DNA of 64,000 nucleotides, from NCBI GenBank assembly GCA_016124895.1, contig WGMU01000031.1:1-64000 (forward strand). The letters run 5' to 3'. Positions 28,840-62,970 of this stretch are shown here, one piece after another. A model generated the notes under the pieces. The model was not told the DNA's origin. It was given only the letters and a program-made list of their open reading frames with translations, and did no database searches. Both the position numbers and the translations under genes were made by a program. This DNA is from a bacterium (GTDB lineage: Bacteria > Planctomycetota > Planctomycetia > Planctomycetales > Planctomycetaceae). Numbering within the stretch: position 1 is the stretch's first letter; the number at the start of each line of letters is the position of its first letter.

Positions 28840-29136
28840 GGCTGTGCTTCCGCGTGTGAAAACAAGATCGATTTGTCCAGACGTTTGCTCGGCCTGTCGA
28901 TTCCGTCTCCGATCCTGTCACCGGACCGGAACTGAGCCGCAGGTCGGTATCCGCGCTGACGCAGTGTGTCGAGACGATTCACTTCCTGCCAGCAGTGCTC
29001 TAAATGTCCGACGGCCTCGAATGCGTTAATTCAAATGCTCAGACCGTGCTTCCGCATCACAGCATCGGCTACTCACAAAAACAGCCGCGGATAATGAATC
29101 CGCGGCTGCTGATTTCCTGACGTCCGAAACGCTCGC
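28840..29136. other. Intergenic region between the HMA-protein gene and acpS
   Basis: This region of 297 bases holds the terminator of the HMA gene (29076-29108) and, nearer to 28840, presumably the acpS promoter. No gene or further repeat is seen. Confidence 0.4.
29076..29108 (-). terminator. Rho-independent terminator of the candidate selenoprotein gene
   Basis: Arms 29082-29092 (cagccgcggat) and 29098-29108 (atccgcggctg) form a perfect 11-bp stem with a five-base loop. On the minus strand the stem is followed at once by TTTTT (complement of 29077-29081). It lies 28 bases after the stop codon at 29137-29139. Confidence 0.88.
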
Positions 29137-29553
29137 TTACGAGCTGCTCGAAACGTCCTCCACTTTGTCGGCCGGGAACCCGGCATCTTCCAGAGCCTTG
29201 ACGGCGTCGGCGGCTTTGAATTTGTCCGGTTTAACGGACGCTGTGGCTGTTCTCGCGTCAGCATCGATTTCGACGTTCGCTACACCCGGCAGCGATGCGA
29301 GAGCGCTCTTCACGCTCGCGCGGCAGCCGCCTCAGGTCATGCCTGGGCACGAGAACCTGACCAGTGTCGCCGTTGCCGGCGGCATTTGGAGACCGTCGGC
29401 CTCCTGACTTTTGGATGAGGCTGCCACCTCAGATTCAGCCGGGGCCGCAGCCTCGCTCGCTGACGACGAGCTTTCGGAGGTCGCCGGCGGAGCTGCCGAC
29501 TCAGCACATCCGAAAGTCACTGCCAGAAGCAGCAATAAACCAGATCTCTTCAT
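29137..29553 (-). CDS. Candidate selenoprotein: HMA-domain lipoprotein-like protein, Sec at TGA 29334-29332
   Basis: The frame starts MKRSGLLLLLAVTFGCAES (export signal, possible lipoprotein Cys) with AAAGGA upstream. A Ser/Ala/Glu-rich linker follows, then an HMA domain: LVRFSCPGMT, TGA, GGCRASVKSALASLPGV, VEIDADARTATASV, AADAVKALEDAGF, ending SSSS and TAA. HMA domains bind soft metals through GMxCxxC; here the first Cys codon is TGA, giving Sec74-G-G-Cys77. Downstream of the TGA, a stem-loop (29321-29297) has a loop beginning 20 bases after it with G second, as bacterial SECIS elements do. Read through, the protein has 138 residues. A nonsense-mutated pseudogene or a base error is the alternative. 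Selenocysteine insertion genes are not in the window. Confidence 0.68.
29297..29321 (-). promoter_or_regulatory. Candidate bacterial SECIS stem-loop
   Basis: On the minus strand, ten bases after the TGA, the sequence GCG-C-GAGCG / TGAAGAG / CGCTC-T-CGC forms a five-bp upper stem, a C/T mismatch and a three-bp lower stem. The seven-base loop has G at its second position. Known bacterial SECIS elements place the loop roughly 16-37 bases after UGA with a G among the first two loop bases, and this one is at 20-26. The fold was made by eye. Confidence 0.55.
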
Positions 29554-62410: not shown

Positions 62411-62970
62411 GACGAAAAACTCAACGAACGAGGGAAGGGAACGCGACGGCGGGAGCCAGACGGTGCCTGGCAGGAAGGTGGGGTCGAACTGCGGTAAGAT
62501 CGTTGCCGGTTCGATGCGGGCATTATCGTCTCGCCAGGGGGTGACTGGCAATGCGCGGCTGCGGCGAAGCGGCAGATTCCAGAGGCTGGGAAGGTGGAGC
62601 ACCGGAGAGTTCCTGACGACCGCTTCCTTCGCCAGTTGACCGATCCGGGCTATCGTTCGTACGACTCAGGTGATTGGCGCTGGAAGTTCGACTCGTTCTC
62701 AGTCTCGAAGCGACGACAGCACGTAGCCCACGGCGTCAGCCGTGGGAAAACCAGAGCCCCAAATGAGCTTGAGCCGCGAAGCGGCGGCAGAAGATTCACG
62801 ATCGTGGTTGCTTCCGCCGCTTCGCGGCTCAGATCGGGTTTTCACTCAGATCCTCGGGCTGACGCCCGAGGCTATATGCTGTCATCGCTTCGCGATTGTC
62901 ACAGAACGAACACGGTTAGGCTGCGCCCCGTGAGGCTCAACCTCACCTACCGATTACGGAGACACATCTG
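62411..62970. other. 560-base divergent intergenic region with palindromes
   Basis: There is no gene between the DUF1501 and PQQ-type genes. The left 300 bases show nothing notable. The right part has three palindromic blocks, given as a separate repeat entry (62727-62871). The PQQ-type promoter is expected right of them. Confidence 0.45.
62727..62871. repeat. Cluster of three palindromes (REP-like)
   Basis: First, cccacggcgtcagccgtggg at 62727-62746 has 8-bp arms. Second, 18-bp perfect arms at 62770-62787 (tgagccgcgaagcggcgg) and 62814-62831 enclose 26 bases. Third, cctcgggctgacgcccgagg at 62852-62871 has 8-bp arms. Each has GC-rich arms of the kind seen in REP elements. The loops of the first and third are gtca and tgac, which are reverse complements of each other. 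Confidence 0.8.

Follow-up and report, generated by a model that had tools for sequence, protein, structure and literature searches.

In the current analysis we have identified a gene that in all likelihood encodes a genuine selenoprotein with an HMA domain. It lies in a 64,000-nucleotide (nt) stretch of DNA, referred to here as the window (positions 1 to 64,000 of contig WGMU01000031.1, assembly GCA_016124895.1, Planctomycetaceae). The computations reveal selenocysteine (Sec) machinery in the host genome, a conserved in-frame UGA, selection on the frame downstream of it, a conserved RNA structure and an HMA fold. The product is predicted to be exported and anchored in the cell envelope as a lipoprotein, with one MerP/CopZ-like HMA domain in which Sec takes the place of the first Cys (GMTUGGC). 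Sec is known mostly from redox catalysis, and the present gene would represent a widespread exported metal-binding protein with Sec at a metal-ligand position.

The in-frame UGA and the selenocysteine machinery

A first-pass annotation of this DNA had noted a TGA in place of the first metal-ligand Cys in GMT-(TGA)-GGC. Translation of the frame agrees and places this single in-frame TGA at codon 74 of 138, within CPGMT-U-GGC; the frame ends in TAA, and 64 codons, not the 65 first counted, separate it from the UGA.

Homologues aligned at this position carry either TGA or Cys, with TGA in many independent genomes. A search of 119 relatives identified a homologue in a congener, about 81-82% identical and with TGA at the same codon, together with further TGA homologues, and many more emerged when 170 family genomes were searched with a profile. 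In each of the 37 loci read codon by codon, the codon for the first ligand is TGA (L119 and L134 were left out of this reading). Among the family genomes with a TGA form, 36 of 36 have selA above the cut-off, as against 70 of 170 overall (hypergeometric 1e-17, a value that is uncorrected for phylogeny and overstates independence because the genomes are related). TGA forms also occur in many other families of the phylum sample (L167, L168, L171, L172, L178, L181, L185), and selA is present in 23 of the 24 phylum-sample genomes picked for a TGA-bearing match. Cys homologues are found in genomes without selA (G008, G061, G060 and G207), and other Cys forms in genomes with selA. In one genus the near-identical proteins of L185 and L165 have Sec and Cys respectively at the aligned position. 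The Cys gene of L165 retains the same hairpin, intact and with GGUCU as its loop (see also L193 and L194), apparently a fossil of a selenocysteine insertion sequence (SECIS) left from a recent change of Sec to Cys.

The codons beyond the UGA are under purifying selection, as comparison of the gene with that of the congener gives a ratio of nonsynonymous to synonymous substitution rates (dN/dS) of 0.28 in this part; the earlier impression of an otherwise undamaged gene therefore stands, and no decay is seen.

Other relatives carry UGA at both ligand positions (UxxxU: UPAGU or UPVGU, in L137, L138, L141 and L142), and UxxxC forms also occur. The natural variants among related bacteria (UxxC, UxxxC, UxxxU and all-Cys) offer a comparison set for the contribution of selenium to metal capture. 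A scan of genome contigs with the Cys form as query brought up nothing beyond general proteobacterial HMA proteins, and a search of plasmids only partial HMA matches of less than 60% identity.

Use of Sec by this cell, at first only presumed, is borne out by its gene content. The host genome (8.13 Mb, 99.8% complete) encodes selA (500 bits), selB (356 bits, C-terminal part included), selD (261 bits) and one tRNA-Sec (73.8 bits), which ARAGORN calls tRNA-SeC with the anticodon TCA (UCA). The selD match (G000:C187:79724-80650) lies within an open frame of 778 residues, which exceeds SelD alone and is possibly a fusion.

The host genome also encodes a second TGA gene (G000:C119, L190), for formylmethanofuran dehydrogenase subunit B (FmdB), with the TGA in SLUHGP. 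With Cys put for the TGA it scores 490.7 bits to TIGR03129. A weak TGA-bearing match to formate dehydrogenase alpha subunit (Fdh-alpha) proved to be this FmdB instead, and no TGA was found in the formate dehydrogenase-like genes of the host genome. Sec-containing FmdB has been reported for another planctomycete (PMC4807772).

Table 1. Position of the selenoprotein gene, its domains and its RNA signals in the window
Feature	Position	Strand	Details
HMA-domain selenoprotein gene	29137..29553	(-)	138 codons, Sec74; open when TGA = Sec
Lipoprotein-type signal peptide, residues 1-16 to Cys16	29506..29553	(-)	sequence; G15-C16 conservation
HMA domain, residues 67-126, beta-alpha-beta-beta-alpha-beta	29176..29355	(-)	Pfam; AlphaFold2; MerP fold match
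UGA read as Sec74, first metal-ligand position	29332..29334	(-)	same codon TGA in 37 loci; Cys in other homologues
Hairpin I	29297..29321	(-)	+11..+35 after UGA; codon-preserving null z -2.81
Hairpin II	29277..29295	(-)	+37..+55, 7 bp, loop CGGGU; z -3.54; probable SelB-binding SECIS hairpin
Intrinsic terminator	29078..29110	(-)	13-bp stem then T5; -24.3 kcal/mol, z -5.75

Two abutting hairpins downstream of the UGA

Recruitment of SelB and Sec-tRNA(Sec) at the UGA would depend on a downstream mRNA element of two abutting stem-loops (Table 1). The first-pass annotation had described a SECIS-like stem-loop beginning ten bases past the UGA. That hairpin (hairpin I) is real, and it is only half of the element; its supposed fit to the SECIS loop is not upheld in most relatives, where the loop is off the consensus. 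Hairpin II, which abuts it, reads CGCUGC-CGGGU-GUAGCG with a U-A closing pair, and both hairpins are present in the minimum-energy fold of the gene's own sequence.

Against a codon-resampled null, 16 distinct members of the branch have mean z-scores of -2.59 for hairpin I and -3.06 for hairpin II, with 16 of 16 below -1 in each. Under the same null the mean for nine Cys homologues is near 0. Hairpin II is nearly invariant and better conserved than hairpin I. Rare codons are used in it: Leu is encoded by CTA (1.3% of Leu codons), TTA or CTG, and Val in every case by GTA, which makes up 3.5% of the Val codons in the window. Compensatory stem changes are seen in hairpin II of L113, and L077 has a different yet complementary stem at the same site. 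The 17-mer core of this hairpin, CGCTRCCGGGTGTAGCG, occurs 15 times in the 170 genomes, each time within this gene. The double-Sec members L137, L138 and L142 carry the same hairpin II and L141 a variant of it; in the double-Sec members the hairpin lies some 34 nt past the second UGA. Outside this branch the members have one hairpin only, at +12..+28 or +17..+37, with covariation and a loop that is mostly CGUGC. An Rfam scan returned nothing in the selenoprotein gene.

In the standard model, a bacterial SECIS carries a G within the first two bases of its loop, mostly with G or U next after it, and is separated from the UGA by 16-37 nt (PMC13188914). The hairpins were compared with this model using a loop of 3-9 nt, a G in its first two positions, a distance of 16-37 nt from the UGA and a minimum free energy of at most -7.5. 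Hairpin I fits in spacing (loop at +21) and energy and departs from the G[G/U] loop pattern, as do most members in this hairpin. Hairpin II fits in its loop and energy (-8.4) and departs in spacing.

Its loop CGGGU matches the N-G-[G/U] pattern recognised by SelB, and we favour hairpin II, with some reserve, as the SelB site. Hairpin I may fold outside the ribosome entry and so bring hairpin II into reach, the folded stem shortening the path between the UGA and hairpin II. It is doubtful that hairpin I alone binds SelB and that hairpin II is conserved for some other reason, even though hairpin I starts 10 nt past the UGA, has its loop inside the 16-37 nt range and is stable in 16 of 16 group members. 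With hairpin II as the SelB site, the two-hairpin signal would bend the accepted rule of SECIS spacing and suggest why SECIS-based gene finders miss some bacterial selenoprotein genes.

A broader proposal, on which we are evenly divided, is that these genes make up a family of planctomycete HMA lipoprotein selenoproteins without a named model, with a two-hairpin SECIS in which hairpin I bridges the gap to a SelB-binding hairpin more distant than the standard model allows, and that hairpin II may serve both UGAs in the double-Sec members.

Predicted protein and its proposed role

The HMA character of the frame, recognised at the outset, is confirmed by Pfam, which with Cys put at the Sec position assigns HMA (PF00403) to residues 67-126 with 56.6 bits against a cut-off of 24.8 (E 3.5e-15). 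The usual two-Cys CxxC of the domain is not found, as the first ligand is UGA/Sec, though both Cys are not strictly required for the domain. The AlphaFold2 model, built from a family alignment of 35 members, has a confident HMA domain behind a disordered linker, with a predicted local distance difference test score mostly above 90 in residues 67-126. Its best fold match in the PDB is MerP (1osd, E 4.4e-7), CopZ is also matched, and both rank high by sequence profile too.

The export signal suspected earlier is likewise present: LLLLLAVTFGC is of the lipoprotein type, Cys16 being the candidate for lipidation, and the pair G15-C16 is invariant in 11 relatives and at least 90% conserved in 35. 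Cys77 occupies the second ligand position. Most branch members have an extra Cys five residues ahead of the Sec (CPGMTUGGC); this nearby thiol, Cys69, is possibly a third ligand.

The protein probably captures or transfers soft metals at the envelope. In the periplasm, the selenolate of Sec74 and the thiolate of Cys77 would capture or pass on Cu(I), Hg(II), Ag(I) or a comparable ion. The main rival on function holds that the UXXC motif carries out thiol/selenol redox chemistry, as in a reductase or a peroxidase-like enzyme, and does not bind metal. UxxC is a common redox motif in bacterial selenoproteins (PMC13188914), and Cys69 could serve as the selenylsulfide partner; however, the fold is that of a MerP/CopZ HMA domain and not of thioredoxin, and the conserved context of the GMT loop is that of metal chaperones. 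We consider the redox role unlikely.

Two further readings do away with Sec altogether and are negligible. A pseudogene or a sequencing error, with TGC mutated or misread as TGA, would need a single base change, but the same-codon TGA is kept across genera and families, and this conservation in many independent genomes, which excludes a sequencing error, together with the dN/dS of 0.28 rules it out. Genome-wide reassignment of UGA, as in codes 4 or 25, would account for the in-frame TGA itself and is ruled out by ordinary stop usage, since TGA terminates 17 of the 34 large open reading frames (ORFs) of the window, and the Sec machinery is complete.

Several points weigh against a metal-binding selenoprotein with a two-hairpin signal. 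The insertion of Sec at the UGA is itself deduced from sequence. The gene's own fold is unexceptional when compared with dinucleotide shuffles (z -0.95) and exceptional only against the codon-preserving null; the region is rich in G+C and the shuffles therefore do not single out the RNA, for which reason the codon-preserving null and covariation were used. The distance from the UGA to the loop of hairpin II is 43 nt, which exceeds the 16-37 nt range set by the standard model (PMC13188914). The lipobox TFGC departs from the classical LAGC. There are no metal genes among the window neighbours, which are acpS, PQQ-repeat proteins, a GDSL hydrolase and a sigma factor, and it is thus the domain from which the metal role is read.

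Related families and the surroundings of the gene

Selenoproteins of the HMA/MerP type are already known, and the proposed two-hairpin SECIS is the most novel part of the present gene. A UxxU 'metal-binding protein / putative mercuric reductase' selenoprotein (NF041115) is listed in PMC13188914 and PMC9312934, and a Sec-containing MerP was reported in the GOS survey in 2008 (PMC2398784).

NF041115 (UxxU_metal_bind) is the best NCBIfam match by E-value, and in it too Sec stands in the metal-ligand positions of an HMA domain. The window protein scores 46.7 bits against its cut-off of 95, about half, and the relatives about 20-40 bits. In the known family both positions are Sec, and its 74-position model lacks the lipoprotein leader; the window protein has UGGC (UxxC) together with a signal and a linker. 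MerP (TIGR02052; PDB 1osd, 1afi), a small exported HMA protein, is the best structural match; the window protein reaches 45.2 bits where the cut-off is 92.55, and unlike MerP the window gene has no adjoining mer operon and has a lipoprotein-type signal. The MerT/CopZ fusion-like heavy metal transport selenoprotein NF045683 shares Sec in an HMA-type domain but is a membrane fusion of about 235 residues, whereas the window protein is a lipoprotein standing alone and scores 38.8 bits, the cut-off being 375. The family passes no NCBIfam cut-off. The standard bacterial SECIS model (bSECISearch; PMC13188914) likewise places a stem-loop directly behind the UGA, and its G[G/U] pattern, with a G among the two leading loop bases, is shared by hairpin II; the difference lies in the two abutting hairpins and in the distance of the consensus loop. 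The literature searched does not describe HMA lipoprotein selenoproteins from planctomycetes, an earlier listing in supplementary tables (e.g. S9 of PMC4807772) being possible.

A second type of HMA selenoprotein has also been observed. This is a MerT-like membrane protein whose C-terminal HMA domain contains GMTCYGU (CxxU, Sec at the second ligand); it is encoded at L150-L152 and L154 (G171, G173, G170 and G165), and its best NCBIfam match is the MerTP fusion, with 102.9 bits against a cut-off of 180.

The gene stands alone, with acpS on one side and the divergent GDSL hydrolase on the other. No conserved neighbour was found across the genomes; the flanking ORFs vary from genome to genome and hence give no operon-based clue to function. 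Both signals noticed earlier at the ends of the gene are in place, namely a good ribosome-binding site, AAAGGACCGAAACAATG, upstream of the start and a strong terminator behind the stop (Table 1). A simple terminator scan overlooked the latter, which folding energy and sequence reveal.

A scan of the window for tRNAs found none, and away from the gene Rfam identifies only two Acido-Lenti-1 RNAs (RF01687), at 62701-62746 (-) and 62852-62897 (+), about 105 bases apart on opposite strands.
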